A stretch of 64,000 bases of DNA from Cytobacillus gottheilii (GTDB lineage Bacteria > Bacillota > Bacilli > Bacillales > Cytobacillaceae), in assembly GCF_001636345.1 (NCBI RefSeq), contig NZ_KV440945.1:1394975-1458974 (forward strand), given 5' to 3'. Within the stretch, counting starts at the first letter, position 1; each line of letters opens with the position of its first letter. This document shows positions 2,284 through 35,735 of this stretch, one piece after another. A model generated the notes under the pieces. It searched no databases. It had not been told where the DNA came from and saw only the letters and a program-made list of their open reading frames with translations. The position numbers and the translations under genes are program-made.

Positions 2284-2317
2284 TATATTTTGAATCATAG
2301 AAAGGCGGGGAGATCCC

Positions 2318-2462
2318 TGCGTCAAGCCACTTCTGCTTTTCGAATTGTCTAGGTGCAGTGGCTAGCCCCTCGAGGTCATAAGTCAAGCCATTCAGAACAA
2401 CCTTCCGTCTGGCTTGCATTATGCTTGTCGGGGGTGAACGAGCCACTTTCGCTTTTCTATAA
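2318..2462 (+). repeat. Dispersed structured intergenic repeat, copy A
   Basis: A 145-bp stretch with nested complementary arms: AGTGGCT near 2355 pairs with AGCCACT near 2445, and inside it GCCCC pairs with GGGGG; ATAAG and TTATG-like words and GGCTTG/CAAGCC-like words lie further in. It ends in a CGCTTTTCT tail. A second related copy lies at 13621-13735, sharing a TGCAGTG...TTAGCC/CTAGCC start, CTTATGCTT(A/G)TCGGG and the CGCTTTTCT end. It is noncoding and resembles palindromic elements that recur between genes in many environmental Bacillus genomes. Confidence 0.6.
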
Positions 2463-2488
2463 ATCACATCCTCGAAGGAGGGGGAATT

Positions 2489-4846
2489 ATGCAAGAACGC
2501 GCTTTAAAGGTTTTGGAATTTAATAAAGTTAAGGATCAGCTGCTTGATTACGTATCATCTGAGGTCGGCAGAAGAAAAGCAGAGAGAATTCAGCCATCCA
2601 CCGACTATGAGACGGTTGTCCGTCTGCAGGAAGAAACAGATGAAGCTGCTACCGTGTTAAGAATTAAAGGCAATATTCCTTTAGGGGGAATTTTTGATAT
2701 AAAGCCTCATGCCAAGCGAGCAATAATCGGCGGGATGCTTAGCCCCCATGAGCTAATGCAGGTGGCATCGACCGTACATGCCAGCAGGCAAATGAAAAGG
2801 TTTATTCAAGAGTTTTCAGAAGAAGAAAACGACATTCCCATCTTAATGGCATATTCCGAAGAGATCATTGTATTAGCGGATTTGGAAACCTCTATCCGCA
2901 ATGCAATTGATGAAAATGGTGAGGTGCTGGACAGTGCGAGTGAAACACTGAGATCGCTTCGCGTCCAGCTTCGCGCAAGAGAAGCGCGTGTGAGGGAAAG
3001 ACTTGAAAGTATGATCAGGTCTTCTAATGCGCAAAAGATGCTGTCTGATGCGATCATTACGATCAGAAATGACCGCTTTGTTATTCCTGTTAAACAAGAA
3101 TATAGAGGCAACTACGGCGGGATTATTCATGATCAGAGTTCATCCGGCCAGACATTATTTATTGAACCTCAATCTGTTGTGCAATTAAATAATGAATTGC
3201 AAAGTATTAAAGTAAAAGAACAGCAGGAAATTGAAAAAATCTTAATTGCCCTTTCAGCATACACAAGTGAATTCAAAGAAGAGCTGGAAACGATTGTGGA
3301 TGTGCTTGCCCAAATTGATTTCATGTTTGCAAAAGCCAGATATGCTAAAAAGATTAAAGGCTCTAAGCCAAAAGTAAACGATGAGGGAAGAATTTCTCTC
3401 TTTAAAGCACGGCATCCGCTCATCCCAATAGACGAGGTAGTCGCGAATGATATTGCCATCGGTGATACATATACCTCTATTGTCATTACTGGACCAAATA
3501 CGGGCGGTAAAACGGTAACACTTAAAACAGTTGGATTATGTACATTAATGGCCCAGGCAGGTCTGCAAATCCCGGCTCTAGATGGATCAGAGATTGCTGT
3601 TTTTGATGCTGTTTATGCAGATATTGGGGACGAGCAGTCCATTGAGCAGAGTTTAAGTACATTTTCATCTCATATGGTTAATATTGTCGACATTCTTGAA
3701 AAGGCTCAATACAACAGCCTTGTTTTATTCGATGAATTAGGTGCTGGCACGGATCCGCAGGAAGGTGCAGCATTAGCGATTTCTATCTTAGACGAAGTGA
3801 ATAAACGCGGAACCCGTGTCATAGCGACAACTCATTATCCTGAATTAAAGGCATATGGCTATAATCGGGAAGGTGTCATTAATGCCAGTGTCGAATTTGA
3901 TATAGAAACATTAAGTCCGACCTATAAACTGCTTATTGGTGTTCCTGGCCGAAGCAATGCATTTGAAATTTCCAAACGGCTAGGCTTAAAAGAAGACGTT
4001 ATAAATGTGGCAAAGTCGTATATTAGTGCAGACAGCAACCAAGTCGAAAATATGATTGCATCCTTGGAGGAAAGCCGTAAACAAGCAGAAACAGATCGTG
4101 AAGAGGCCAATGAATTGCTCAAAAATGCAGATCTTCTGCATAAGGATCTTCAAAAGCAGATGGCTGAATATTATACTAAAAAAGAAACTCTTTATGAAAA
4201 GTCTGCAATAAAAGCAAATGAGATTGTTGAAAAAGCAAAGCAGGAAGCAGAGCAAATTATCCATGATCTGCGGAAAATGCAAATAGAAAAACAAGCAGAA
4301 GTGAAGGAGCATGAATTGATTGAAGCGAAGAAGCGTCTTTCAGAGGCAGCTCCGGCACTGAAAAAGAAACAAAGTCCGGAACGAAATGCCGACGGCAAAC
4401 GAAAGTTAACACCAGGTGATGAAGTGAAGGTGTTAACGTTTGGCCAAAAAGGACAGCTGCTTGAAAAATCAGGTGATAATGAATGGCATGTTCAAATCGG
4501 AATCCTGAAGATGAAAGTGGAAGAAAAAGACTTAGAATTTATTAAAAGCCCTAAAAAGACTGAAACAAAACCGCTTGCTACTGTTAAAGGCAAGGATTAC
4601 CATGTCAGTCTGGAACTTGATCTCCGCGGAGAACGATATGAGAATGCCCTTATGAGAGTCGAAAAATATATCGACGATGCTCTTCTTGCCAACTATCCGC
4701 GTGTATCAATCATTCATGGAAAAGGAACTGGTGCACTGCGGCAGGGGGTACAGGAATATTTACGCAATCATCGTTCTGTTAAAAAAATCCGCTTTGGAGA
4801 AGCGGGAGAAGGCGGTACTGGTGTAACCGTCGTGGAATTTAAGTAA
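2489..4846 (+). CDS. mutS2: Endonuclease MutS2 / ribosome-rescue factor
   Basis: The 785-residue product has the MutS2 layout: an N-terminal core and clamp, the MutS-type ATPase (Walker A GPNTGGKT near residue 335, Walker [14 protein letters not shown]), a long charged coiled coil (about 510-620), and a C-terminal Smr nuclease domain with [12 protein letters not shown] and [12 protein letters not shown]. MutS2 lacks the mismatch-recognition domain. In other bacteria it is linked to suppression of recombination and, in B. subtilis, to collided-ribosome splitting. ATG 2489 follows GGAGGGGG. A repeat element separates it from polX, and the DUF350 gene follows after 16 nt, so the two are probably co-transcribed. 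Confidence 0.95.
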
Positions 4847-4862
4847 GAGGGGGAAGTGAAAT

Positions 4863-5270
4863 ATGGAAGGTTTTTGGGAAAATGAGTTTATCCAAACCGC
4901 TGCCTACTATAGTGTTGTCGTCCTTTGTATGATTGTCTTTTTAGCTGTATTCGAACTTGTGACAAAGTACAGAAACTGGGAAGAAATAAAAAACGGCAAT
5001 ATCTCCGTAGCAATGGCCACGGGCGGGAAGATATTTGGTATTGCCAATGTGTTTAGACACTCCATTATGCATAACGATACGCTTTTTACGATGATTATAT
5101 GGGGAGTATTTGGATTTTTCCTATTGCTTGTCGCATATTTTATCTTTGAGTTTTTAACACCAAGATTTAATGTAGATGATGAGATTAAGAATAACAACAA
5201 AGCAGTTGGCTTTATTTCAATGGTCATCTCTATTGGTCTGTCATTTGTCATTGGAGCAAGTATCGGATAG
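4863..5270 (+). CDS. yshE: DUF350 family membrane protein (YshE-like)
   Basis: 135 residues with four predicted membrane segments (about 14-34, 50-62, 75-98, 112-134), the layout of DUF350. The second segment carries the family-like stretch ISVAMATGGKIFGIANVF. Function is unknown for the family. It lies 16 nt behind mutS2 with a good SD (AGAGGGGGAAGTG), as yshE does in B. subtilis, and is followed by a very small membrane-peptide gene. Confidence 0.85.
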   Translation: MEGFWENEFIQTAAYYSVVVLCMIVFLAVFELVTKYRNWEEIKNGNISVAMATGGKIFGIANVFRHSIMHNDTLFTMIIWGVFGFFLLLVAYFIFEFLTPRFNVDDEIKNNNKAVGFISMVISIGLSFVIGASIG

Positions 5271-5285
5271 AGGGAGAAGGGGAAA

Positions 5286-5369
5286 ATGGAGAAGCTTGCA
5301 AAAGTATTAATCGTGGTTAGCGCCCTTTTTGTGCTAGTTGGACTTGTATATATTCTTTTCATTGCCTAA
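5286..5369 (+). CDS. 27-residue single-pass membrane peptide
   Basis: ATG 5286 follows a strong SD (GGGAGAAGGGG) and opens a 27-codon frame beginning MEKLAKVLIVV and ending YILFIA-stop. After the charged start it is almost wholly hydrophobic, with one transmembrane span. It sits 15 nt after the DUF350 gene and just before a strong terminator, so it would be the last gene of the mutS2 transcript. I do not recognise a family. Support comes from the SD, the spacing and the membrane composition. Confidence 0.55.
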   Translation: MEKLAKVLIVVSALFVLVGLVYILFIA

Positions 5370-5373
5370 TGGT

Positions 5374-5422
5374 GATAACAAAAAAGAATTGCCCGTGTTA
5401 AGTGCAGTTCTTTTTTGTTATC
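5374..5422. terminator. Bidirectional-looking terminator
   Basis: A 19-bp stem (GATAACAAAAAAGAATTGC against GCAGTTCTTTTTTGTTATC, one wobble) with an 11-nt loop. A and T runs on opposite arms would allow termination on either strand. It closes the polX/mutS2 region. Confidence 0.85.
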
Positions 5423-5482
5423 CAATAGGCTTATATCTATAAGATGGCTGTTAACATCTCCTGCTTATAAACTACACCGTTT

Positions 5483-5538
5483 ATTCTAATTGTTTTGTTT
5501 AAAGCAGTATATTATAATGAGGTGAGAACAATTAGAAT
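5483..5538 (+). promoter_or_regulatory. lcfA promoter inside a widely spaced inverted repeat
   Basis: TTGTTT (5490-5495), a 17-bp spacer and TATAAT (5513-5518) make a good sigma-A promoter about 50 bp before lcfA. The arms ATTCTAATTGTT (5483-5494) and AACAATTAGAAT (5527-5538) form a perfect 12-bp inverted repeat; one arm overlaps the -35 and the other starts near +1. This looks like a repressor site, but it does not resemble the FadR consensus. Confidence 0.55.
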
Positions 5539-5569
5539 GTTCAAAATACTTAAAGAAAGGGGATCGCGT

Positions 5570-7273
5570 ATGACTGAGTATAAACCATGGCTTAACCTGT
5601 ATCCTGAAGAAATTCCTAAAGAACTCATCTATGAAAATCAGCCTGTCCAGGATTTTTTGAAAAATACAGCTGCAGAATTTCCTGAAAAAACGGCTGTTCA
5701 TTTTATGGGTAAGGAATTCACTTACTCATACATTTATGAAGCTGCACTTAAACTGGCCGGCTATCTGCAATCGATTGGGATTGAAAAAGACGATCGGGTA
5801 GCGGTTATGCTGCCGAATACTCCACAATCTGTGATCAGCTATTATGGAATCCTATTGGCTGGCGGGATCGTTGTTCCGACAAATCCGCTTTACATGGAAA
5901 GGGAGTTAGCGTATCAGCTGAAGGATTCAGGGGCAAAAGCAATCATTACAATGGACATTTTATTTCCGCGTGTGTCGAAAGTGAAACAGCAGACAGATCT
6001 TCAGCATATAATTGTAACCGCTATCAAAGATGCACTTCCATTTCCAAAAAATCTTATTTATCCCTTTATACAGAAGAAACAATACGGAATTGTGGTCAAT
6101 GTCAAGCATGAAGGAAATCATCATCTATGGACAGAAATACTAAAGCTGCCTTCTATTCCTGTAAGTGAGCAGGAGATTGACTTTGAGAATGACTTGGCTC
6201 TTTTGCAATATACAGGCGGAACGACCGGCTTTCCTAAAGGAGTTATGCTGACACATAGAAATTTAGTGGCGAATACGGCAATGTGCCGAGCTTGGCTGTA
6301 TAAGTGTGAAAGAGGGAAAGAAACTGTTCTTGGCATTTTGCCTTTCTTCCATGTTTATGGAATGACGACTGTCCTGCTGCTTTCCGTTTTAGAAGGCAAT
6401 AAAATGGTGTTAATGCCTAAGTTTGATGCAGGGGATACATTAAAAACCATTCAAAAGCAAAAACCTACTCTGTTCCCAGGTGCCCCAACGATTTATATTG
6501 GGCTATTAAACCACCCTGATATTGAAAAATATGATCTTTCATCCATTGATTCCTGTATTAGCGGCTCCGCTGCACTTCCGGTAGAGGTTCAGCAGAAATT
6601 TGAACAAATTACAGGCGGAAAACTAGTTGAAGGCTACGGCCTGACTGAATCATCACCTGTTACACATGCTAATTTTTTATGGGATATGCCGAGAATAAAA
6701 GGAAGTATTGGTGTGCCTTGGCCTAATACAGATGCTGTCATTTTTTCGATGGAGAATGGCGAAAAGCTGCCTCCAGGTGAGATCGGGGAAATAGCTGTTA
6801 AAGGTCCACAAGTAATGAAAGGCTATTGGAACCGTCCAGACGATACGGAGCAGACTTTAAGAGATGGCTGGCTTTTAACAGGAGATCTTGGCTATATGGA
6901 CGAAGAAGGATATTTTTATGTAGTGGATCGTAAAAAGGATATGATTATTGCTGGGGGCTTTAATATTTATCCCCGTGAAATAGAAGAAATCCTATACGAG
7001 CATCCAGCCGTTCAGGAAGCAGTTGTAGCAGGTATACCAGACCCTTATCGAGGTGAAACCGTTAAAGCCTATATCGTTTTAAAAGATGGCAACGATGTAA
7101 GCGAAGAAGACTTGAATGTATTTGTCCGTAAGCATTTGGCAGCCTTTAAAGTGCCAAGGGTATACGAGTTTAGAGAAGAATTGCCTAAAACAGCAGTAGG
7201 GAAAATCCTGCGCAGAGCATTAATTGATGAAGAGAAGAAGAAATTTACCGAAGATGAAGAAAAGCAAGCCTAG
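5570..7273 (+). CDS. lcfA: Long-chain fatty acid-CoA ligase
   Basis: Activates long-chain fatty acids to acyl-CoA with ATP, the entry step to beta-oxidation. The 567-residue protein is an ANL-superfamily enzyme with the P-loop-like motif YTGGTTGFPKG (about residue 214), GYGLTESSP (about 357), the TGD hinge LLTGDLGYMDEEG and the C-terminal catalytic-lysine motif KTAVGKILRR. ATG 5570 lies behind AAAGGGG; an upstream in-frame extension has no SD and would overlap the promoter. It is followed by its own weak hairpin and the fadR promoter, as in the B. subtilis lcfA-fadR-fadB-etfBA cluster. Confidence 0.95.
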   Translation: MTEYKPWLNLYPEEIPKELIYENQPVQDFLKNTAAEFPEKTAVHFMGKEFTYSYIYEAALKLAGYLQSIGIEKDDRVAVMLPNTPQSVISYYGILLAGGIVVPTNPLYMERELAYQLKDSGAKAIITMDILFPRVSKVKQQTDLQHIIVTAIKDALPFPKNLIYPFIQKKQYGIVVNVKHEGNHHLWTEILKLPSIPVSEQEIDFENDLALLQYTGGTTGFPKGVMLTHRNLVANTAMCRAWLYKCERGKETVLGILPFFHVYGMTTVLLLSVLEGNKMVLMPKFDAGDTLKTIQKQKPTLFPGAPTIYIGLLNHPDIEKYDLSSIDSCISGSAALPVEVQQKFEQITGGKLVEGYGLTESSPVTHANFLWDMPRIKGSIGVPWPNTDAVIFSMENGEKLPPGEIGEIAVKGPQVMKGYWNRPDDTEQTLRDGWLLTGDLGYMDEEGYFYVVDRKKDMIIAGGFNIYPREIEEILYEHPAVQEAVVAGIPDPYRGETVKAYIVLKDGNDVSEEDLNVFVRKHLAAFKVPRVYEFREELPKTAVGKILRRALIDEEKKKFTEDEEKQA

Positions 7274-7417
7274 ACGGTAAAATAATGAAAAAATGAAACA
7301 TTCCAGCTTTCATTTAAAAGGACCGGAATATTCGGCTCTTCTTTTTTGAATATTAAGGCTTGTCCATTCATAATTGTAAATGTCATAATAGGATAAAAGA
7401 AAAAAGTGGTTATTTTC

Positions 7418-7472
7418 TTGACAATATAACCTTCAATTACTATTATTAAATTATGAATGATGATTCATTCAT
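7418..7472 (+). promoter_or_regulatory. fadR promoter with FadR operator
   Basis: TTGACA (7418-7423), a 17-bp spacer and TATTAT (7441-7446) form a near-consensus sigma-A promoter. A palindrome with TGAATGA/TCATTCA arms at 7453-7472 covers the expected start of transcription and matches the known B. subtilis FadR operator (TGAATGA-N4-TCATTCA type). This implies that FadR represses its own operon and is released by long-chain acyl-CoA. Confidence 0.85.
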
Positions 7473-7598
7473 TAAATCTTTCTTTGTGTTCATTATTACA
7501 TTTAACAGCTCATACGAAGCACTGCAGAGTTGTGTTTATAGAATGAAAAGAGATCACGAGATAAGATGTAAGATGTGTCTTGAAGGGAGGGAAACGGA

Positions 7599-8183
7599 TT
7601 GAAAAAAGATAAACCAAAATATCGGCAAATCATCGATGCAGCAGTCGTTGTTATTGCTGAGAATGGCTACCACCAGGCACAGGTTTCCAAAATTGCAAAG
7701 CAGGCTGGTGTTGCTGATGGAACGATATACTTATATTTTAAGAATAAAGAAGATATTTTAATCTCTCTCTTTCAAGATAAGATGGGCCATTTTATTGAAA
7801 GAATTGAAGAGCAGATTGCAGGAAAAGAACGGGCTGTAGAGAAGTTATTAGTCATGGTCGAATCCCATTTTACAATGCTTTCTCAAGATCGGCATCTTGC
7901 TATCGTAACACAGTTAGAGCTAAGACAGTCTAATAAGGAGCTTCGCCTTAAGATCAATGAGGTGTTGAAGGGTTATTTATCTCTTGTTGATAAAATTCTT
8001 GTTGAAGGAAAAGAAAACGGTGAGTTTTCTGGAAATCTCGAAACAAGACTTGCGCGGCAAATGATATTTGGGACGATGGATGAAGTGGTGACAACCTGGG
8101 TGATGAATGATCAGAAGTATGATCTTCCCTCTTTGGCGCCATCTGTACATCAGCTGCTGATCAGCGGATGCAAGGCGGATTGA
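7599..8183 (+). CDS. fadR: TetR-family fatty-acid degradation repressor FadR
   Basis: 194 residues. The N-terminal TetR helix-turn-helix (about 10-55, including KIAKQAGVADGTIYLYFKNK) is virtually the B. subtilis FadR/YsiA sequence, and the C-terminal ligand domain keeps AIVTQLELRQSN, RLARQMIFGT and TTWVMNDQKYDL. The known relative represses beta-oxidation genes and is antagonised by long-chain acyl-CoA. The start is TTG 7599 behind GGGAGGG. It is the first gene of the fadR-fadB-etfB-etfA operon, under its own operator. Confidence 0.93.
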   Translation: MKKDKPKYRQIIDAAVVVIAENGYHQAQVSKIAKQAGVADGTIYLYFKNKEDILISLFQDKMGHFIERIEEQIAGKERAVEKLLVMVESHFTMLSQDRHLAIVTQLELRQSNKELRLKINEVLKGYLSLVDKILVEGKENGEFSGNLETRLARQMIFGTMDEVVTTWVMNDQKYDLPSLAPSVHQLLISGCKAD

Positions 8184-8214
8184 CCATCTAATAAGTAGAG
8201 AGGTGAATAAACCA

Positions 8215-8988
8215 ATGGAATACTTAAAGTGGAATCATCAAGATCATGTTGCGACTATTACAATCGACAGAGCACCAGCAAATGCACTATCATCAGACGT
8301 TTTAAAAGAATTCTCATCAGTACTGGATGAAATTGAAAAAGCAGATGATATTCGTGTTGTATTGATTCACGGAGAAGGAAGATTTTTCTCTGCTGGAGCC
8401 GATATAAAAGAGTTTACTTCAATCACTAGCGGAAGCGAGTTTGAAAAGCTTGGCCAATATGGTCAGGATCTGTTTGAAAAAATGGAGAGATTCCCGAAAC
8501 CATTAATTGCAGCCATTCATGGTGCAGCATTAGGCGGTGGGCTTGAGCTGGCAATGGGCTGTCACTTCCGACTTGTTTCAGACAATGCCAAGCTGGGACT
8601 GCCGGAGTTACAGCTGGGGTTAATACCCGGATTTGCAGGCACGCAAAGACTTCCGCACCTTGTCGGCAGAGCCAGAGCTGCTGAAATGCTTTTTACAAGC
8701 GATCCGATTACGGGGCTTGAAGCCGTTAAGTACGGACTGGCAAACCATGCCTATCCAGAAGCTGAACTGTTAGAAAATGCCTATAATTTAGCCAAAAAAA
8801 TCGCAAAGAAGAGCCCGCTTTCCATTAAGGCAACGATTGAGCTATTAAATTACACAAAATCAGATCAGTTTTATGAAGGTGTTAAAAAAGAAGCTGAGCT
8901 TTTTGGCGAAGTGTTTGCATCAAATGATGGCAAAGAGGGCATCTCGGCTTTTATTGAAAAGCGTGAGCCCAACTTTACAGGCAAATAA
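8215..8988 (+). CDS. fadB: Enoyl-CoA hydratase (crotonase family)
   Basis: Hydrates 2-enoyl-CoA in beta-oxidation. The 257-residue protein has crotonase motifs: the oxyanion-hole segments FSAGADIKEF (about 60-70) and HGAALGGGLELAMG (about 101-114), and LPELQLGLIPGFAGTQRLPHLVG with the usual catalytic Glu position. ATG 8215 is preferred: the GAGAGGTGA SD overlaps the alternative GTG 8203, leaving that start without spacing. It lies 20-30 nt after fadR in the same operon. Confidence 0.9.
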   Translation: MEYLKWNHQDHVATITIDRAPANALSSDVLKEFSSVLDEIEKADDIRVVLIHGEGRFFSAGADIKEFTSITSGSEFEKLGQYGQDLFEKMERFPKPLIAAIHGAALGGGLELAMGCHFRLVSDNAKLGLPELQLGLIPGFAGTQRLPHLVGRARAAEMLFTSDPITGLEAVKYGLANHAYPEAELLENAYNLAKKIAKKSPLSIKATIELLNYTKSDQFYEGVKKEAELFGEVFASNDGKEGISAFIEKREPNFTGK

Positions 8989-9009
8989 TGCAGCGAGTAG
9001 TAAATGATT

Positions 9010-9049
9010 AACTGAAGGTGAGCGGATGCTCAAAAGCCTTCAGTTTCAT
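9010..9049 (+). terminator. Intra-operon hairpin between fadB and etfB
   Basis: AACTGAAGG (9010-9018) pairs with CCTTCAGTT (9037-9045), followed by a short TCATTT. The T run is weak, so it is more likely an attenuating or RNA-stabilising hairpin than a full terminator. Confidence 0.5.
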
Positions 9050-9112
9050 TTAACATAAATTTTCCGAATCTTTAGAAGTGCAGAAATGATTTAATAATTT
9101 AGGAGGGACATT

Positions 9113-9886
9113 ATGAACATCTATGTTTTATTAAAAAGAACGTTTGATACTGAGGAAAAAATCACGATTTCTTCCGGAAAAATAAATGAAGATGGCGCTG
9201 AGTTTATTATCAATCCTTATGATGAGTATGCAGTGGAGGAAGCCATTCAAGTCCGCGATGCACATGGCGGAGAAGTAACGGTTGTTTCAGTTGGAAGTGA
9301 GGAAGGTGAAAAGCAGCTTCGTACTGCACTGGCGATGGGAGCCGATAAAGCGGTATTAATCAACACGGAAGACGATCTTGAAGAAGGAGATCAGTTTACT
9401 ACCTCAAAAATCTTGGCCGAATATTTAAAAGACAAGGAAGCAGATTTAATCCTGGCAGGAAATGTGGCAATTGACGGCGGATCTGGCCAGGTTGGACCGA
9501 GAGTGGCTGACCTCTTGGATATCCCCTATATTACAACCATAACGAAACTTGAAATTGATGGGACAAATGTAAGCGTTGTCCGAGATGTTGAAGGAGATTC
9601 CGAAGTGATTGAAACATCTCTTCCTTTATTGGTTACAGCTCAACAAGGCTTGAATGAACCTCGTTACCCTTCGCTGCCGGGGATTATGAAAGCGAAGAAA
9701 AAACCCCTGGATGAACTGGAGCTGGATGATTTAGATCTTGACGAGGATGACGTAGAGCCGAAAACAAAAACAATTGAAGTGTATCTGCCTCCTAAAAAAG
9801 AAGCCGGAAGAATTCTTGAAGGTGAACTGCAGGATCAAGTAAAGGAGCTTGTACAACTTCTTCATAACGAAGCAAAAGTCGTTTAA
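9113..9886 (+). CDS. etfB: Electron transfer flavoprotein beta subunit
   Basis: With EtfA it forms the heterodimer that takes electrons from acyl-CoA dehydrogenase and delivers them to the quinone pool. The 257-residue protein opens MNIYVLLKRTFDTEEKI and contains VAIDGGSGQVGPRVADLL and the C-terminal AKKKPL segment typical of the beta subunit. SD AGGAGG at about 9101. An acidic stretch (about residues 200-215, many D/E) lies near the C-terminal arm. etfA follows after 34 nt. Confidence 0.93.
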   Translation: MNIYVLLKRTFDTEEKITISSGKINEDGAEFIINPYDEYAVEEAIQVRDAHGGEVTVVSVGSEEGEKQLRTALAMGADKAVLINTEDDLEEGDQFTTSKILAEYLKDKEADLILAGNVAIDGGSGQVGPRVADLLDIPYITTITKLEIDGTNVSVVRDVEGDSEVIETSLPLLVTAQQGLNEPRYPSLPGIMKAKKKPLDELELDDLDLDEDDVEPKTKTIEVYLPPKKEAGRILEGELQDQVKELVQLLHNEAKVV

Positions 9887-9920
9887 TAAAACGTAAAATA
9901 AAACGCAGGAGGTTAACATA

Positions 9921-10898
9921 ATGAGCAGAAAAGTTTTGGTATTAGGTGAAGTAAGAGATCAATCTTTGCGTAATGTCACATTTGAAGCAATCGCCGCAGC
10001 AAAGCAGGCTGCAGAAGGCGGCGAAGTGGTCGGATTATTAATCGGTGATTCTGTAAGCGCTTTATCGGGTGAATTAATTCACTTTGGTGCAGACCGCGTA
10101 CTAACGGTTGAACACGACCTGCTTAAGCAATATACTTCTGACGGCTTTTCACAAGCATTAATGGCAGCTGTGGATGCTGAAAGTCCAGACGGTATTATCC
10201 TGGGGCATACTGCATTAGGAAAAGACCTTGCACCTAAGATCGCAGCAAAGCTTCAATCCGGATTAATCTCTGATGTTACGCAGATCGAAGAAGCAGGCGG
10301 AAATATTGTCTTTACACGGCCGATTTATTCAGGGAAAGCCTTTGAAAAGAAAATCGTAACAGACGGTCTTATCTTCGCAACGATTAGACCAAACAATATC
10401 GCTCCTCTTGAGAAGGATGAAACAAGATCAGGAGAGACATCAGCTTTATCTGTTGATATAAAAGATCTTCGCTCCATAATTAAAGAGGTTGTCCGCAAGG
10501 CAAGTGAAGGTGTAGATCTTTCAGAAGCAAAAGTGGTTATTGCAGGCGGCCGCGGAGTGAAAAGCGAAGATGGATTTGAGCCGCTAAAAGAGCTGGCACA
10601 GGTCCTAAACGGTGCCATTGGTGCATCACGCGGAGCTTGTGATGCAGAGTATTGTGATTATTCACTGCAAATTGGCCAGACAGGAAAAGTCGTAACACCT
10701 GATTTGTATATTGCCTGCGGAATTTCAGGAGCAATTCAGCATTTAGCGGGAATGTCGAACTCTAAAGTTATCGTCGCTATTAATAAAGATCCAGAAGCAA
10801 ATATTTTTAAAGTTGCAGATTATGGCATTGTAGGCGATCTTTTTGAAGTGGTGCCGATGCTGACAGAAGAATTTAAGAAGATCTTAGTAAACGCGTAA
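9921..10898 (+). CDS. etfA: Electron transfer flavoprotein alpha subunit
   Basis: FAD-binding partner of EtfB. The 325-residue protein has an N-terminal adenine nucleotide alpha-hydrolase-like fold and a C-terminal FAD domain beginning near residue 209 (AGGRGVKSEDGF), with GASRGACDA, QIGQTGKVVTPDLYIACGISGAIQHLAGM and INKDPEANIFKVADYGIVGDL, the signature of the family. SD AGGAGG precedes ATG 9921. Last gene of the fad operon, followed by a terminator. Confidence 0.95.
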   Translation: MSRKVLVLGEVRDQSLRNVTFEAIAAAKQAAEGGEVVGLLIGDSVSALSGELIHFGADRVLTVEHDLLKQYTSDGFSQALMAAVDAESPDGIILGHTALGKDLAPKIAAKLQSGLISDVTQIEEAGGNIVFTRPIYSGKAFEKKIVTDGLIFATIRPNNIAPLEKDETRSGETSALSVDIKDLRSIIKEVVRKASEGVDLSEAKVVIAGGRGVKSEDGFEPLKELAQVLNGAIGASRGACDAEYCDYSLQIGQTGKVVTPDLYIACGISGAIQHLAGMSNSKVIVAINKDPEANIFKVADYGIVGDLFEVVPMLTEEFKKILVNA

Positions 10899-10906
10899 CA
10901 ATCATT

Positions 10907-10966
10907 GAAACAGACGGAATCAACTGCTATTGAAGGAAGAGCAGCAGCTGTCTGTTTCTTTTTATT
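10907..10966 (+). terminator. Terminator of the fadR-etfA operon
   Basis: GAAACAGAC (10907-10915) pairs with GTCTGTTTC (10950-10958) and is followed by TTTTTATT; the internal AGCAGCAGCT adds pairing in the loop. The remaining gap to trxA (10967-11185) shows no gene with a credible start. Confidence 0.75.
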
Positions 10967-11185
10967 AAAATGTGGATCCAGCTCTCATGTTGCTTTGCAA
11001 TTGGAACGGAACGTGCGGGAATTCCAGCTTTGTTTTATGGAGATGCAAAGAAAATATTTGTTCGTGCAGAACAAAATAACATCTCAAAAAAAGAACCATG
11101 TCTGCGGAACAGCAATCATGAATATTCCCATGAATTTGAGGGTATAGTACCAACGAGCAAATTGTTCGCTTCATATGGTGTTAAA

Positions 11186-11194
11186 TGGTATACT
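11186..11194 (+). promoter_or_regulatory. Extended -10 promoter of trxA
   Basis: TGGTATACT carries the TGn extension plus a TATACT -10 (11189-11194), 45 bp before the trxA start codon. The upstream TTGTTC is at non-ideal spacing, which fits an extended -10 promoter. Confidence 0.5.
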
Positions 11195-11238
11195 CTCGAT
11201 ATGTTATGAATTAGTTGAATTGATTAGGAGGCATATAA

Positions 11239-11553
11239 ATGGCTATTACACATGCAACAGATCAAAACTTTACTGAAGAAACAGGTTCAGGTTTAGTACT
11301 TGCAGATTTCTGGGCTCCATGGTGCGGACCTTGTAAAATGATTGCTCCAGTTCTTGAAGAGCTTGACGGAGAAATGGGCGATAAAGTAAAGATCGTTAAA
11401 ATCGATGTAGATGAAAATCAAGAAACTGCTGGTAAATTCGGCGTTATGAGTATTCCTACATTAATCGTTCTTAAAGACGGTGAAGTAGTAGATAAAGTAG
11501 TTGGCTTCCAGCCAAAAGAAGCATTATCTGAGCTTCTTTCCAAGCATGCATAA
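11239..11553 (+). CDS. trxA: Thioredoxin
   Basis: General cytosolic disulfide reductase. 104 residues with the redox motif WCGPC (Cys29, Cys32) and the cis-proline segment SIPT. It starts at ATG 11239 behind AGGAGG. The flanks, etfA upstream and uvrC downstream, are the same as in B. subtilis. Confidence 0.97.
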
Positions 11554-11686
11554 TTAGCATATTTGGATTTGTACGTTTTAAAAAATCAGCTTCTTCAATC
11601 TGATCTGCCCTGCTGCAATGATGAAGAGTGCCTTTTACTATAATTATTGATGCAGAAAGCAGATAATGAGTGTAATGACAGTTGAT

Positions 11687-11717
11687 CCCCGGCTTCTTCC
11701 TGAAGGCCGGGGTTTTT
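11687..11717 (+). terminator. Terminator between trxA and uvrC
   Basis: CCCCGGC (11687-11693) pairs with GCCGGGG (11706-11712), followed by TTTTT. It lies 130 bp past trxA and only 28 bp before uvrC, so it may also throttle read-through into uvrC. Confidence 0.85.
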
Positions 11718-11744
11718 ACTTCCTTTTCGAGGATGTGTTTGACG

Positions 11745-13517
11745 ATGAATGACATCATTAAAAATAAATTAATGATTTTGCCTGCACAGCCAGGGTGCTA
11801 CTTAATGAAGGACAGGCAAGGCACTATTATTTATGTGGGCAAAGCGAAAGTATTAAAAAACAGAGTCCGGTCTTATTTTACTGGCTCACATGATGGAAAA
11901 ACGCTGCGCCTTGTTAACGAAATTGAGGACTTTGAATATATTGTCACTTCCTCCGATATGGAAGCGCTGATTCTTGAGCTCAATCTAATAAAAAAGCATG
12001 ATCCTAAATACAATGTCATGCTGAAGGATGATAAAACCTACCCATTTATTAAATTAACTGCTGAAAGACATCCGCGTCTTATTACGACGAGAAAAGTGAA
12101 AAAAGACAAAGGCAAATATTTTGGTCCATATCCAAATGTTCATGCTGCAAACGAAACAAAAAAGCTGCTCGATCGCATTTATCCGCTTCGGAAATGTGCT
12201 ACCTTACCTGACCGCGTATGCCTGTATTATCATTTAGGACAATGCCTGGCTCCATGTGTGAAGGAAGTGGATCAGCAGCAATATCGGACAATGACAGAGG
12301 AAATTACCCGTTTTTTAAATGGCGGTTATAAAGATATAAAGAAAGAACTTACAGAAAAAATGGCGGCTGCGGCTGAAGACCTTGATTTTGAGCGTGCAAA
12401 AGAGTATAGAGACAAAATCGCTCATATTGATGCAACGATGGAAAAGCAAAAAATGACAACGACTGACTTCACTGATCGTGATGTCTTTGGTTATGCTGTT
12501 GATAAAGGCTGGATGTGTGTACAAGTCTTTTTTATCCGCCAAGGCAAGCTGATTGAAAGGGATGTCTCCATGTTTCCCATTCATAACGAGCCTGAGGAAG
12601 AAATCCTTACGTTTCTCGGTCAATTTTACATGAAAGCAAATCATTTTAAGCCGAAGGAAATTTTAGCACCATCTTCTGTTAATGGCGAGATGGCAGAAAA
12701 GCTTCTTGGTGTAAAAGTATTAAATCCGCAGCGGGGACAAAAGAAAGATTTGGTTTCATTAGCTTATAAAAATGCCAAAATCGCGCTGCAGGAAAAGTTT
12801 TCTCTCATTGAGCGGGATGAAGACCGGACGATTAAGGCAGTGGAGAGTTTGGGCGAACAGCTTGGAATTTATACGCCGCATCGGATTGAAGCATTTGACA
12901 ACTCAAACATTCAAGGTGCAGATCCAGTATCTGCAATGATCGTTTTTATTGACGGAAAACCGGCGAAACGGGAGTACCGTAAATATAAAATTAAAACCGT
13001 TCAAGGCCCGGATGATTATGACTCCATGCGTGAGGCGGTTCGCAGAAGGTATACTCGAGTGTTAAAAGAAGAGCTGCCTCTACCGGATCTGCTTATTATT
13101 GATGGAGGAAAGGGTCATGTTGAAGCGGTCAGAGATGTTCTTGAAAATGAGCTGGGTCTTGATTTGCCGCTGGCAGGACTCGTAAAAGATGAAAAACACC
13201 GAACGTCGCAGCTGTTATTTGGGAATCCGCTGGAAATCGTTGCGCTTGCACGCAATAGCCAGGAATTTTATTTGCTGCAGCGAATTCAGGATGAGGTCCA
13301 TCGCTTTGCCATCACGTTCCATCGCCAGTTAAGAGGAAAAGGTACATTCCAATCTATGCTCGATGACATTGCTGGGATCGGTGAAAAGCGCAAAAAACAA
13401 CTGTTAAAGACATTTGGCTCAGTTAAAAAAATGAAGGAAGCTTCTGCAGATGACTTCCGCCAATTAGGAATTCCTGCTAATGTAGCAGAAGAACTCGTAA
13501 AGAAACTAAGTGAATAG
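11745..13517 (+). CDS. uvrC: Excinuclease ABC subunit C
   Basis: Makes the dual incisions in nucleotide-excision repair. The 590-residue protein has an N-terminal GIY-YIG nuclease ([22 protein letters not shown]), the Cys cluster [21 protein letters not shown], a UVR domain (about 197-232), the RNase H-like second nuclease ([28 protein letters not shown]) and a C-terminal HhH pair ([25 protein letters not shown]). ATG 11745 gives the usual N-terminus. TTG 11739 or ATG 11733 are also in frame, and TTG 11739 is better spaced from GAGG, so the exact start is uncertain by two to four codons. Confidence 0.95.
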
Positions 13518-13519
13518 CG

Positions 13520-13548
13520 TTGTCATCATATAGACAATATGCTATACT
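13520..13548 (+). promoter_or_regulatory. Sigma-A promoter, probably for the lysC leader
   Basis: TTGTCA (13520-13525), a 17-bp spacer and TATACT (13543-13548) lie directly after the uvrC stop. No other good promoter is visible before the lysine riboswitch, so the lysC leader RNA would run about 590 nt and carry the palindrome and dispersed repeat described separately. Confidence 0.65.
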
Positions 13549-13576
13549 TGGACCAACTTTCATATTCACTCACTTT

Positions 13577-13599
13577 TTTATACTTTCTGAAAGTATAAA
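13577..13599. repeat. 23-bp perfect palindrome
   Basis: TTTATACTTTC (13577-13587) and GAAAGTATAAA (13589-13599) are exact reverse complements around one central base. It lies about 20 bp into the transcript expected from the promoter at 13520-13548. It has no T tail, so it is not a terminator; an operator or an AU-rich leader hairpin are both possible. Confidence 0.6.
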
Positions 13600-13620
13600 T
13601 TTATAGACATAGAACAGTGA

Positions 13621-13735
13621 TTAGCTGCAGTGCTTAGCCATTTTTGGGTCTAAGCCGATCTGTGCAGAGGGCAAAACCTTCTACCCATTTCGGCTTATGC
13701 TTATCGGGCTTAGCAATGTGCTTCCGCTTTTCTTA
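13621..13735 (+). repeat. Dispersed structured intergenic repeat, copy B
   Basis: Related to the element at 2318-2462: it shares the GCAGTG..TTAGCC beginning, a central arm pair (TAAGCCGA against TCGGCTTA), CTTATGCTTATCGGG and the CGCTTTTCT end. It lies between the probable lysC promoter and the lysine riboswitch, so it would be transcribed as part of the lysC leader. Confidence 0.6.
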
Positions 13736-13740
13736 TCGTA

Positions 13741-13985
13741 AAGTGAAGGTAGAGGTGCAAGCTTCATCAGTAACAGCTTTGAGGAGAATGAGCTCCGACG
13801 ATTTGCTGTGAAAGGGAATGTTTGCCGAAGCAGGGGGAGACTCATCACTCGCCATGCTGGTCTTGCATTGAATAAATGCCGGATTGTCAAGACAGTAGTC
13901 TTGGAGAGCTATCTCACTGTGTGCACGTATTTTTTGTATACGTTTGACTACACAGCAATGAGATAATTCTCATTGCTTTTTTGTT
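13741..13985 (+). promoter_or_regulatory. Lysine riboswitch (L box) with terminator, controlling lysC
   Basis: The conserved L-box words occur in order: AGAGGTGC, GAGGAGAATGAGC, GTGAAAGGG, GCCGAAGC, ATGCTGGTCTTGCATTGAATAAATG (in two parts) and GGAGAGCTATCTC. The expression platform ends in a terminator stem AGCAATGAG..CTCATTGCT (13954-13976) followed by TTTTTTG; the ATCTCA of the aptamer's end can compete with it. By the known mechanism, lysine binding favours the terminator and lowers aspartokinase synthesis. The sequence closely follows the B. subtilis lysC leader. Confidence 0.95.
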
Positions 13986-14141
13986 TTGTCTGCATGTTTA
14001 CAGAAGAAATCGGGAATCGATTAACTAGCGATTTTTCATACAAAACTGCAAAAAAGAGAAAGATACAAAAATCATTCTTCTTATTGAGACAAAACAAAAT
14101 GGCAAAGGGAAATCATCATAGTCGGAAGGAAGGGTATTCAA

Positions 14142-15371
14142 ATGGGTTTAATTGTGCAAAAGTTTGGGGGAACTTCGGTCGGCAGCGTCGATAAAATTCA
14201 AAATGCTGCAAACCGGGTCATTGAAGAAAAAAATAGGGGTAACGATGTTGTCGTTGTGGTCTCAGCGATGGGAAAGACAACAGATCAGCTTGTTGGCATG
14301 GCAAAAGAAATTACGTCCTCCCCCAGTAAAAGAGAAATGGATATGCTCTTAACAACAGGGGAACAAGTGACGATCTCGCTGTTAAGCATGGCTTTAATTT
14401 CTAAAGGTCATCCGGCCGTTTCAATGACAGGCTGGCAAGCAGGTGTTGAGACAGAGGAAATTCATGGAAATGCAAGAATCTTAAATATTGATAGTGATAA
14501 AATTGAAAAGGAAATTCAGCAAGGCAAAATTGTGATTGTGGCCGGCTTTCAAGGCGCTACCTCAGAGGGAGAAATCACTACTCTGGGAAGGGGCGGTTCT
14601 GATACAACAGCCGTTGCACTTGCAGCAGCGCTAAAAGCTGATAAATGTGATATATATACAGACGTGACTGGGGTATTTACAACAGATCCCCGTTACATAA
14701 AGAATGCCCGCAAGCTTCTATCCGTTTCTTATGATGAAATGCTGGAACTTGCCAATTTAGGAGCCGGAGTTCTGCACCCAAGAGCGGTTGAATTCGCGAA
14801 AAACTACGGAGTTTCTTTAGAAGTAAGATCTAGCATGGAAAAAGAACAAGGAACAACGATTGAGGAGGAAGTTAAAATGGAGCAAAATTTAGTTGTACGC
14901 GGAGTTGCGTTTGAAGATGAAATCACAAGAGTATCTGTCATAGGGCTTCCAAGCAGCCTTGGCGGATTATCTACCATTTTCTCAGCACTAGCCAATGATC
15001 ATATCAATGTGGATATCATTATTCAGAGTATGACGGAAGGCGAAACTTCTTCGCTGTCTTTCTCCATTAAAAATGAAGATTTAACAGAGACTGTTAAGGT
15101 GCTTGAGAGAAATCGTGATCAGCTTCTATATGATCGAATCGAATGGGAATCTGGCTTAGCAAAAGTTTCAATCGTAGGCTCAGGCATGATCTCAAATCCA
15201 GGGGTAGCAGCAGAAATGTTTGATGTGCTTGCGCAGAACGAAATTTTAGTCAAAATGGTCAGCACATCTGAGATTAAAGTTTCAGCAGTCGTAGAACAAG
15301 TGAAAATGCTTCCTGCCGTTGAAGTGCTTCATGATGCATTTCAGCTATCTGCCAATTCAGTGAAAGCATAA
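14142..15371 (+). CDS. lysC: Aspartokinase II (lysine-sensitive), alpha subunit
   Basis: Phosphorylates aspartate in the first step to lysine, threonine and methionine. The 409-residue product has the amino-acid kinase start IVQKFGGTSVGS, the substrate motif TTLGRGGSDTTAVALAAAL, and two C-terminal ACT domains (about 265-400). The start ATG 14142 lies behind GGAAGGG. The lysine riboswitch controls it transcriptionally. An in-frame internal start gives the beta subunit, as known for B. subtilis aspartokinase II. A terminator follows. Confidence 0.95.
   Translation: MGLIVQKFGGTSVGSVDKIQNAANRVIEEKNRGNDVVVVVSAMGKTTDQLVGMAKEITSSPSKREMDMLLTTGEQVTISLLSMALISKGHPAVSMTGWQAGVETEEIHGNARILNIDSDKIEKEIQQGKIVIVAGFQGATSEGEITTLGRGGSDTTAVALAAALKADKCDIYTDVTGVFTTDPRYIKNARKLLSVSYDEMLELANLGAGVLHPRAVEFAKNYGVSLEVRSSMEKEQGTTIEEEVKMEQNLVVRGVAFEDEITRVSVIGLPSSLGGLSTIFSALANDHINVDIIIQSMTEGETSSLSFSIKNEDLTETVKVLERNRDQLLYDRIEWESGLAKVSIVGSGMISNPGVAAEMFDVLAQNEILVKMVSTSEIKVSAVVEQVKMLPAVEVLHDAFQLSANSVKA
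14877..15371 (+). CDS. lysC: Aspartokinase II beta subunit (internal in-frame start in lysC)
   Basis: ATG 14877 is preceded by a strong SD, TGAGGAGGA (14861-14869), and opens at MEQNLVVRGVAFEDEITRV, close to the known B. subtilis beta-subunit N-terminus. The product (164 residues) consists only of the regulatory ACT domains and would form the alpha2-beta2 enzyme. Translation from this site is inferred from the SD and from the characterised relative. Confidence 0.75.
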   Translation: MEQNLVVRGVAFEDEITRVSVIGLPSSLGGLSTIFSALANDHINVDIIIQSMTEGETSSLSFSIKNEDLTETVKVLERNRDQLLYDRIEWESGLAKVSIVGSGMISNPGVAAEMFDVLAQNEILVKMVSTSEIKVSAVVEQVKMLPAVEVLHDAFQLSANSVKA

Positions 15372-29881: not shown

Positions 29882-29910
29882 TTGACTTTTAATTATTACT
29901 TTAATATAAT
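29882..29910 (+). promoter_or_regulatory. Strong sigma-A promoter of the split tRNA gene
   Basis: TTGACT (29882-29887), a 17-bp spacer and TATAAT (29905-29910), about 38 bp before the first tRNA base. Near-consensus, as expected for a stable-RNA gene. Confidence 0.85.
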
Positions 29911-29947: not shown

Positions 29948-30309
29948 GTCCCAGTAGCTCAGCAGGATAGAGCAACGGCCTTCAAGAAATTAGGAGCCTC
30001 TATAAGGAAACAGAAACTTTTAGAGTGGACGACACTGTATCGGTGAAGCCTTAACAGATATGCTGATGGTAATACCGAGGAAACTTACGCCTAACCTTAG
30101 GATGAGAAATTCTGAATGACTAACACTGTTAGTGGTAAGAATTTTAAATAATGATCACTCTTGATCATCGTGAGGATCCGTAGAGACTATACGTGTCGCA
30201 CCTGAAATGGTGAAGATATAGTCCAGACCACAAACAAAACTTGTTTGGTGACGAAAGTCATAGTGGTAAGCTAAGCCGTCGGTCGGGAGTTCGAATCTCT
30301 CCTGGGACG
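29948..30309 (+). tRNA. tRNA-Arg(UCU) split by a group I intron
   Basis: The exons are 29948-29982 and 30271-30309. Joined, they give a full cloverleaf: acceptor GTCCCAG/CTGGGAC with discriminator G, D-arm TAGCTCAGCAGGATAGAGCA, anticodon stem ACGGC/GCCGT with loop CTTCTAA (anticodon TCT), and T-arm with GTTCGAATC. The ligated sequence is almost that of the ordinary Bacillus tRNA-Arg(UCU). CCA is not encoded. The break falls between U33 and the first anticodon base. A terminator follows at 30331. If this is the only UCU-reading gene, splicing would be essential for AGA decoding. Confidence 0.93.
29983..30270 (+). ncRNA. Self-splicing group I intron (288 nt, no internal ORF)
   Basis: The upstream exon ends in U and the intron ends in G, as the group I mechanism requires. 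The exon end GGCCTT can pair with AGGAGCC in the intron to form P1. The core is recognisable: P3 CGACAC (30030-30035) with GTGTCG (30193-30198); the R-like word GTAGAGACTATACG (30180-30193) and the S word AAGATATAGTCC (30213-30224), whose GACTA/TAGTC make P7; CACC/GGTG for P8; and CAAACA/TGTTTG for P9. A P-like GAGGAAACTT lies near 30077. There is no homing endonuclease frame inside. Confidence 0.92.
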
Positions 30310-30330
30310 TCATAAATTGTACAGAAAAAG

Positions 30331-30372
30331 GATGCTAACACAGATTAGAAATTGTGTTAGCATCTTTTTTTA
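30331..30372 (+). terminator. Terminator of the tRNA transcript
   Basis: GATGCTAACACA (30331-30342) pairs perfectly with TGTGTTAGCATC (30353-30364), followed by a run of T. It separates the tRNA from the endonuclease-like gene. Confidence 0.92.
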
Positions 30373-30494: not shown

Positions 30495-30917
30495 ATGCAA
30501 CACCATACAAAAAACAAAGGAGATTTAGGTGTTTTAAAGGCACAAGTTGATCTTTATCAGAAAGGTTTTATGGTGATGTTACCTCTAACTGAACATGCTC
30601 CATTTGACTTGGTTATTTATAAAGATGGATCATTTAAGCGTGTTCAAGTTAAGTTTAGAAATATGAATCATAGAGGTAATCTTGAAGTAAGGTTTCGCTC
30701 ATCATATTATAAAAGTACAGGTGCCATCAGTAAACCAGTTGATAAGGAAGAGGTCGATATTTACTGCATTTATTGTCCTCAGACTGATGAATGTTACTAT
30801 CTTGATCCCAAGAATCTGAAGGAATCGGTTACTTTAAGGCTCACTCCTGCTAAAAATAATCAATCAAAGCTAGTAAAAATGGCTAGTGATTTTAGAGATT
30901 TACCATTAGGATATTGA
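30495..30917 (+). CDS. Group I intron-type PD-(D/E)XK homing endonuclease, free-standing
   Basis: 140 residues. The layout fits the small PD-(D/E)XK family typified by I-Ssp6803I, the enzyme encoded within a cyanobacterial tRNA-fMet group I intron: KNKGDLG...LYQKGF..MLPL, then FDLVIYKDGSFKRVQVKFR carrying Asp38 and the QVK form of the (D/E)XK pair (Gln51, Lys53), and later VDIYCIYCPQTDECYYLDP. It would cleave an intron-less or heterologous tRNA-type target to drive homing; this is inferred. The acidic residue often seen in the first helix (GE) is replaced by GV. The gene lies 185 bp after the tRNA and beyond its terminator, with its own SD (AGAAGGGAGAG), so it is not inside the intron. Confidence 0.8.
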   Translation: MQHHTKNKGDLGVLKAQVDLYQKGFMVMLPLTEHAPFDLVIYKDGSFKRVQVKFRNMNHRGNLEVRFRSSYYKSTGAISKPVDKEEVDIYCIYCPQTDECYYLDPKNLKESVTLRLTPAKNNQSKLVKMASDFRDLPLGY

Positions 30918-35345: not shown

Positions 35346-35460
35346 AGTCCTCAATAAAACAAATTACACAAATAACACAAACACAGCAAGACGTTTTCAC
35401 TTTGAAAAACTGTCATTTTTTTAACCTAAAAATTTAACGGTTTAAAGTGTTGAATCGATA

Positions 35461-35735
35461 AAATCAATGATGAGGACAAGTAATTTTATGAACAGGATTT
35501 TACAGAGAGCCGGGGATGCTGAAATCCGGTAATCCAGCATAAAATGAACTCACCTCTGAGTGCGGGTCTGAACCTTTTAGTAAGACCTGCCGGGTAGCTG
35601 CACCCGTTATCAAACAAAATGAGAGCACGTATTATACGTGAATCAGGGTGGTACCGTGGAACAGGTTTTCAAGCCTTTTCATCCCTTGTTTTCCAGAAAT
35701 CTGGATAAAGGGATGAGAAGGCTTTTTATTTTTTT
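35461..35735 (+). promoter_or_regulatory. Leucine T-box riboswitch with terminator
   Basis: Stem I begins near GATGAGGACAAGTA; the specifier loop reads TGAACTCACC with a CTC (Leu) codon at 35549-35551. The T-box proper is AGGGTGGTACCGTGG (35645-35659); its TGGT would pair with the ACCA end of a tRNA with discriminator A, as tRNA-Leu has. The terminator stem AAGCCTTTTCATCCCTT/AAGGGATGAGAAGGCTT is followed by TTTTATTTTTTT. Uncharged tRNA-Leu should favour antitermination, as in B. subtilis ilv-leu. Confidence 0.95.

Follow-up and report, generated by a model that had tools for sequence, protein, structure and literature searches.

Small group I introns occur in the anticodon loops of cyanobacterial and proteobacterial tRNA-Leu(UAA), tRNA-Arg(CCU) and tRNA-Ile(CAU), and the phage gene pairs mobE/nrdB and F-CphI/psbA are known cases of collaborative homing. 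In this arrangement, an ORF-less group I intron is accompanied by a free-standing homing endonuclease (HE) that targets the intron site, and, by the consensus given in the available part of a review, introns are invaded by HEs (PMC3984707). The tRNA-fMet intron of Synechocystis has I-Ssp6803I as its homing enzyme (PMC1995217). Putative group I introns have been described in the tRNA-Arg(TCT) genes of Beggiatoa (BOGUAY) and Candidatus Thiomargarita nelsonii, in a paper whose accessible sections report neither an endonuclease nor an insertion position (PMC4853749). The sections of literature searched describe no tRNA-Arg(UCU) intron in Bacillota and no HE of the present family outside its intron. 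The earlier note on this DNA named no described case in a Bacillus tRNA-Arg(UCU); introns in this isoacceptor are already published for the giant sulfur bacteria (PMC4853749, same sections).

The window, which is the whole stretch of 64,000 nucleotides analysed from Cytobacillus gottheilii, contains the following features around its tRNA-Arg(UCU) gene:

29882-29910, plus strand: predicted sigma-70-type promoter-like site TTGACT-17-TATAAT, with 11 of 12 consensus matches.
29948-29982, plus strand: exon 1 of tRNA-Arg(UCU), which ends at U34, with the same split in relatives.
29983-30270, plus strand: group I intron of 288 nt, which ends in G (RF00028, ARAGORN and alignment of 50 introns).
30271-30309, plus strand: exon 2 of tRNA-Arg(UCU), which starts at C35.
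30324-30371, plus strand: terminator-like stem with a T run, from a sequence scan.
30495-30917, plus strand: free-standing PD-(D/E)XK endonuclease of 140 aa, PF11645 (profile, structure model and homologs).

The account that we favour, and regard as likely, is that the sole tRNA-Arg(UCU) found in this genome is split by a self-splicing intron and that an escaped HE encoded beside it moves this intron in trans.

The tRNA-Arg(UCU) gene occupies 29948-30309, and its two exons join to a standard tRNA. ARAGORN without the intron option finds no tRNA within the 64-kb window; with introns allowed it calls tRNA-Arg(tct) with intron (37,288), in agreement with the coordinates and exons read by the earlier note, and after excision of 29983-30270 it calls tRNA-Arg(tct) as well. 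The rejoined gene is a Bacillus-type tRNA-Arg(UCU), as had been claimed. The promoter and terminator that the same reading placed around the gene stand as a promoter-like site and a terminator-like stem, both predicted, and the segment 29800-31000 holds seven promoter-like sites against a shuffle mean of 3.8.

Exon 1 has 35 nt (7+2+4+9+4+1+5+C32 U33 U34), therefore the break lies after U34, the first anticodon letter. C29983 and C30271 are identical, which leaves the split position ambiguous by one base within the C. gottheilii genome; in relatives (L063, L066 and many proteobacterial loci) the intron starts with T and exon 2 with C, and this fixes the split at U34|C35. The break directly after U33 given by the earlier note is thus off by one, and its intron coordinates, 29983-30270, are right despite the wrong base number. 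The sister locus L191 (genome G017, same genus), which has an empty site and 93.1% identity over the 983 nt up to exon 1, fits the split at U34|C35. A split one base earlier was considered and ruled out, as it alters the anticodon and the relatives put the break after U34.

Full-length matches to the intron are found in 9 of 201 genomes (its own and 200 relatives), with 77-100% identity and the window included, while the genus has 35 further genomes and all of them lack such a match; partial intron and exon matches from this search are those among the matches listed. All twelve congeneric loci fetched have an intronless tRNA-Arg(tct). Among 387 genomes of the order, 18 have an intron match at E <= 1e-20. 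A pattern scan with one genome per species, which demanded CTAAGCCGT and so missed tRNAs with another anticodon stem, finds 57 loci at the same site. By record titles these are 33 Bacillota, 23 proteobacterial metagenome-assembled genomes (MAGs; 17 Gammaproteobacteria, two Arenicellales, two Acidiferrobacterales and two labelled only Proteobacteria) and one Mollicutes MAG. A viral scan with the intron core pattern gives no match and one with a pattern from the S word to the exon gives two. Exon 1 was found in 56 of the 57 loci and in both viral loci, and the insertion site is always identical. The window intron is therefore one more member of a known intron type and not unique.

The class of the intron was examined in an alignment of 50 introns, the window's own and those from 49 among the 57 genome loci. 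Left out were seven loci with ORFs or long inserts, both viral loci, and L070, whose extracted stretch lacks exon 1. The structure scored was drawn by hand and comprises P1, P2, P3, P4, P5, P6, P7, P8, P9, P9a, P9b and P10, of which the following were placed in the window:

29977-29982 with guide 29994-29998, plus strand: P1 (U34.G29994, C31 bulged), paired in 50/50 and invariant.
29990-29993 with 30271-30274, plus strand: P10, with pairs 1-4 formed in 50/50, 49/50, 38/50 and 14/50.
29999-30024, plus strand: P2 hairpin, both-side changes in 7/8 pairs.
30030-30035 with 30193-30198, plus strand: 5' and 3' strands of P3, six pairs, four of them compensatory, 100% paired.
30040-30044 with 30074-30078, plus strand: P4, invariant (P4 and P5 together 30040-30078).
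Within 30040-30078, plus strand: P5, outer two pairs invariant, inner three covarying.
30079-30179, plus strand: P6, with a variable extension (30090-30168) that is the site of an endonuclease ORF in some relatives.
30185-30189 with 30219-30223, plus strand: P7 (region 30185-30223), invariant in 50/50, enclosing the P3 3' strand and P8.
30228-30266, plus strand: P9, P9a and P9b (GAAA loop), compensatory changes in 2/4, 4/4 and 4/4 pairs.

In this 62-pair group I structure 95.9% of the 3078 cells pair. Sliding the partners by one to three columns lowers the share to 33.5-43.6%, a comparison in which the drawn structure is favoured, as it was made with the same sequences in view. Both-side changes occur in 30 pairs, compared with a shuffle mean of 22.3, and none of 500 shuffles is as high. 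P3, which makes a pseudoknot with P7, has compensatory change in four of its six pairs. P2, P3, P5, P6, P8, P9, P9a and P9b covary, while P1, P4 and P7 are invariant and covariation therefore does not bear on them. U34.G stands at the 5' splice site in all 50 introns, and P10 is firm for two pairs only. The helices P1, P3, P7, P8 and P9 that the earlier note could draw are all in this structure, with P1 and P7 invariant; its S word, AAGATATAGTCC, lies at 30213-30224, and the final G that it read is the last base in 50/50 aligned introns.

The Rfam model RF00028 matches the intron with 29.8 bits and E 1.1e-5 in a 651-base stretch, and in the whole genome the window intron is the best of three matches (E 1.8e-5). 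The match does not reach the gathering score of 50 bits, which is a library cut-off and not a defining feature of the group I class, and the intron is missing from a default Rfam scan. On eight homologs, the model lists three at E <= 0.01 with 26.7-30.3 bits. The class was therefore tested independently by covariation. The earlier note had proposed this model as a check and its silence as the contrary sign; the model is indeed silent at the gathering score, and this is overruled by the covariation in 50 introns. By the comparison of the fifty aligned introns, 29983-30270 is a group I intron, and it is predicted to remove itself by self-splicing. As to subgroup IC3 features, P7.1/P7.2 are not seen between P7 and P8 in the window intron. 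The P6 extension (30090-30168 in the window) carries, by eye, a stem and an internal loop GAANG / GGTA in many ORF-less introns; the loop is common to Bacillota and Proteobacteria introns and is perhaps a tertiary contact. Because this intron family, which spans Bacillota and Proteobacteria, falls below the Rfam cut-off here and is missed by ARAGORN in its default mode, genomes seemingly without this tRNA may carry the intron. Group I introns are stated to lie outside what tRNAscan-SE was designed for (PMC8450103).

Apart from the gene itself, the 4.59-Mb genome has a single near match to the exons, a tRNA-Arg(CCU), and of 39 places in the genome with a loose UCU-arm pattern (30 and 9) none is a tRNA by ARAGORN. 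The gene at 29948-30309 is thus very probably the only tRNA-Arg(UCU) of the genome. AGA is the commonest arginine codon in the window (233 of 702 arginine codons in 49 non-overlapping ORFs) and is used in 45 of these ORFs. With AGA this common and a second tRNA-Arg(UCU) not found, the gene is expected to be essential and its intron to splice, so that splicing itself should be essential. These counts bear on the question of further copies raised by the earlier note, whose argument that the transcript must splice for AGA decoding unless a second copy exists holds to the extent that the copy is missing.

The ORF at 30495-30917 lies on the same strand, 185 nt past the tRNA and behind its terminator-like stem; it was overlooked in the earlier note. 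It belongs to PF11645 (PDDEXK_5, E 3e-37), and NCBIfam profiles give no match. The only sequence match in the PDB is 2ost, which is I-Ssp6803I (E 0.002). An AlphaFold model (pLDDT 77, pTM 0.70) finds the four 2ost chains first, with best E 1.4e-9 and TM 0.72, followed by SPARDA at 5.6e-4. Asp38, Gln51, Val52 and Lys53 are invariant in 39 aligned HE proteins, and the D..QxK residues presumably have the catalytic roles. By sequence and model, the protein has a predicted I-Ssp6803I-type fold with the D..QxK active-site motif and is a likely DNA-cutting enzyme. Among the best 120 of 1314 homologs, a number are annotated as group I intron-associated PD-(D/E)XK endonuclease, which means that annotators already know the family as such. 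It is this neighbouring HE gene that makes the tRNA-Arg(UCU) locus unusual. No ORF of at least 60 aa overlaps the window's own intron. A distant PDDEXK relative with about 30-32% identity is found at 2548-2949 of L046 (G170), a genome without the intron.

In relatives, the HE is found both inside and outside the intron. It is intact in P6 of a 625-634-nt intron in four loci, L057 (Exiguobacterium sp. s124), L062 (Paenactinomyces guangxiensis), L076 (Bacillus sp. FJAT-14578) and L093 (Priestia abyssalis), is broken in P6 of L085, and remains as fossil pieces in P6 of L077, L080 and L105. Outside the intron it occurs in six intron-bearing genomes, four intact and two broken. The intact genes, which follow the tRNA in the same orientation, are those of the window, L054 (Fredinandcohnia onubensis), L070 (Bacillus sp. 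HNG, in whose genome the intron is seen whole in L144) and L078 (Paenibacillus sp. BSR1-1), and the broken ones are in L109 (genome G160) and in G199. The HE was not found in 21 of the 33 Bacillota loci (by a separate HE search for L055, L056, L071 and L082). A putative free-standing HE near an ORF-less intron, which is the arrangement of collaborative homing, is present in the window, L054, L070 and L078.

Genome G199 has a tRNA with an ORF-less intron and, downstream, a second copy truncated at its 5' end. This copy runs from the P6 part of the intron through the HE and the 3' half of the intron to exon 2, with some 140 nt of the flank repeated behind it; the two copies align at 83% identity across 344 nt, from P6 through exon 2 and the flank, and at 89% across 46 nt. 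The broken HE of G160 starts at the same intron point as the G199 copy; an island stands between it and the tRNA, which is 11 kb away. A decayed repeat of the tRNA 3' flank follows the HE in L054 (14/14 bases, 0/2000 shuffles) and a flank repeat follows it in L070 (13/13 bases, 16/2000 shuffles; flank alone 39/2000). From the G199 copy, the G160 start and the L054 and L070 repeats, the exit of the HE would be, as we read it, a tandem duplication, after which the first copy lost its ORF and the second decayed around the HE. Behind the window's HE a flank repeat is not significant (44 and 61 of 2000 shuffles), and that of L078, with 0/2000 shuffles, lies within a terminator T run; neither has a convincing flank remnant, and the same origin of their HEs is therefore only inferred.

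The C-terminal HE motif DYRxVP is shared by the intron-borne ORF with the ribozyme core. Its ribozyme-coded codons were considered as proof of an intron past and dropped, as the motif is also in intronless phage copies. When RNA pairing of the ORF end was tested in ten cases, only L062 ranks low (20/1000). In the HE tree, the free-standing copies are not one clade against the intron-borne ones and the starred branches force at least two changes; the columns are too few to resolve the place of the window's copy.

Within the 387 genomes, an HE with at least 50% identity occurs in 7 of the 18 intron-bearing genomes and in none of the other 369 (Fisher p 1.3e-10, or 1.0e-9 if the distant match of G170 is counted). 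Of these seven, G000, G363 and G480 are intact, G490 is intact by its open frame, G160 and G199 are broken and G362 is a fossil. Neither a full-length intron match nor the HE occurs in the 35 other genomes of the genus, the HE search among relatives having matched G000, G160, G170 and G199; this and the empty site of the sister locus L191 are signs of mobility. Among the named genomes, 50 of 57 were examined and an HE match (E <= 1e-5) is present in seven and absent from 43, and no match at that threshold exists in the 23 proteobacterial intron genomes. The free-standing HEs of L054 and L070 differ with dN 0.10 and dS 1.50; across the 28 pairs of eight HE copies pN/pS is 0.08-0.36, with dS saturated in many.

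The account that we favour would run as follows. Self-splicing would restore tRNA-Arg(UCU), and the HE, formerly encoded in P6, would now act from its own gene; it is probably an escaped homing endonuclease which still moves the ORF-less intron in trans. It may have left the intron by the route seen in G199. It would cut the intronless anticodon region ACGGCCTTCTAAGCCGT, where 12 of 17 positions agree with their own reverse complement; I-Ssp6803I uses a similar pseudo-palindrome as its site. Repair of the cut would copy the intron, possibly together with the HE. A more particular proposal, that partial tandem duplication of the tRNA gene let the HE escape its own intron, which it now mobilises in slimmed form from next door, is tentative, with a chance that we put somewhat short of even. 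The same grade applies jointly to the reading that tRNA-Arg(UCU) in Bacillota presents the full series of HE inside, fossil inside, duplicated copy and clean free-standing gene.

Each alternative bears on part of this account, and more than one may hold, which is why the probabilities need not sum to one. It is improbable, though worth serious weight, that the intron is an ordinary ORF-less tRNA intron and the HE a leftover or unrelated gene at a busy tRNA integration site which moves nothing. Relatives do have varied inserts at the 3' ends of tRNA-Arg(UCU), 11 of the 18 genomes with the intron keep it with no HE match, and among the seven HEs of the 387 genomes three are broken or fossil; such a gene would, however, hardly be confined at 50% identity or more to intron-bearing genomes, nor be intact in four free-standing loci with low dN/dS between two of them. 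Far less credible is a degraded insertion without a working ribozyme in a tRNA pseudogene. The RF00028 score below the cut-off is in line with it, but no other UCU tRNA was found in the 39 places checked, AGA is as frequent as given above and the intron core is invariant or covarying across phyla.

Movement in the opposite direction, in which free-standing phage or chromosomal HEs invaded the P6 loop and the window shows the state before the invasion, with collaborative homing, also seems unlikely. It would explain why free-standing copies adjoin intronless phage tRNA-Arg(UCU) genes; it follows the review consensus, as given in the part available, of HEs invading introns (PMC3984707), and the HE tree leaves the direction unresolved. 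Against it, the outside copies of G199 and G160 keep intron P6 sequence on their 5' side, and that of G199 also keeps the intron 3' half, exon 2 and the flank. Two phage copies are, besides, 51% identical to the window HE, versus 59-66% for the seven unbroken Bacillota copies; the longer piece of the G199 HE has 61%.

Several further loci carry related elements. In the viral contig L110 (IMGVR_UViG_3300001533_001295, 6086-7771), a tRNA-Arg(UCU) and a tRNA-Leu(CAA) are both split by an intron in the anticodon loop, and these introns carry HNH-type ORFs, recognised by Pfam in the first and by eye in the second. The RF00028 score is 68.8 bits, over the cut-off, for the Leu intron and 30.4 bits for the Arg intron. 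All phage introns known in 2014 were in protein genes, according to the available part of the review of that year (PMC3984707). The viral contigs L171, L172, L173 and L174 have an HE-family gene just downstream of an intronless tRNA-Arg(UCU), at about 4.6-5.5 kb in L171, L172 and L174 and at 2.6-3.6 kb in L173. In L172-L174, by eye, this block apparently lies within a further tRNA gene, and a 12-bp helix encloses the tRNA. Rfam finds no RF00028 on L171 and L172.

Among the matches listed, L044 (G163, 4700-9700) and L045 (G095, 4200-8300) have intronless tRNA-Arg(UCU) exons and, 4-5 kb downstream, a copy of the intron 3' tail and exon 2. The cargo, labelled by eye, is a GIY-YIG-like and a helicase-like ORF in G163 and a RES-like cassette in G095, and each insert seems to bring along the tail of an intron that is absent from its present host. 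In L042 (G160, 2000-14500) an island of about 11 kb, with type I restriction-modification-like ORFs labelled by eye, sits between the intron-bearing tRNA and, among the matches listed, a second intron 3' tail with exon 2. In L191 (G017, 1359-2964), which comes from the sister species, a repeat of the tRNA-Arg 3' end delimits an insert of 1.6 kb, and this end of the tRNA may therefore be an integration hot spot. Elsewhere in the window, a lysine riboswitch (13742-13919) and a T-box leader (35458-35689) score above the Rfam cut-offs.

Compared with the cyanobacterial and proteobacterial tRNA introns, the window likewise has a small group I intron in an anticodon loop, but in another tRNA. The introns of Beggiatoa and Thiomargarita split the same tRNA-Arg(TCT) isoacceptor, and they belong to giant sulfur bacteria whereas the present genome is of Bacillus type; the likeness is one of description, taken from the accessible sections (PMC4853749). 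The Synechocystis sp. PCC 6803 tRNA-fMet system has a PD-(D/E)XK enzyme of the same fold and a tRNA intron of similar size, as its 655 bp and 150-aa ORF compare with 625-634 nt and about 137 aa in the ORF-bearing relatives (PMC1995217, in extract), but it differs in the tRNA, in the weak similarity of the enzyme (E 0.002) and in that the window's enzyme stands outside the intron. Nothing was seen in the sections of literature searched of an escaped-HE arrangement in Bacillota. If our account is true, these loci would form a natural series, in bacterial chromosomes, of an intron and its endonuclease coming apart, and the window would hold a homing unit of two genes whose target is the one tRNA found for a common codon. 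Phage collaborative homing has the same pair of ORF-less intron and free-standing HE, the targeting of the site being inferred here; the window differs in its bacterial chromosome, its tRNA host and its relatives with the HE inside the intron. The phage HE is thought to be moving into the intron, whereas G199 shows a copy coming out, and the escape would thus be the reverse of the route proposed, in the available part of the review, for introns acquiring endonucleases (PMC3984707).
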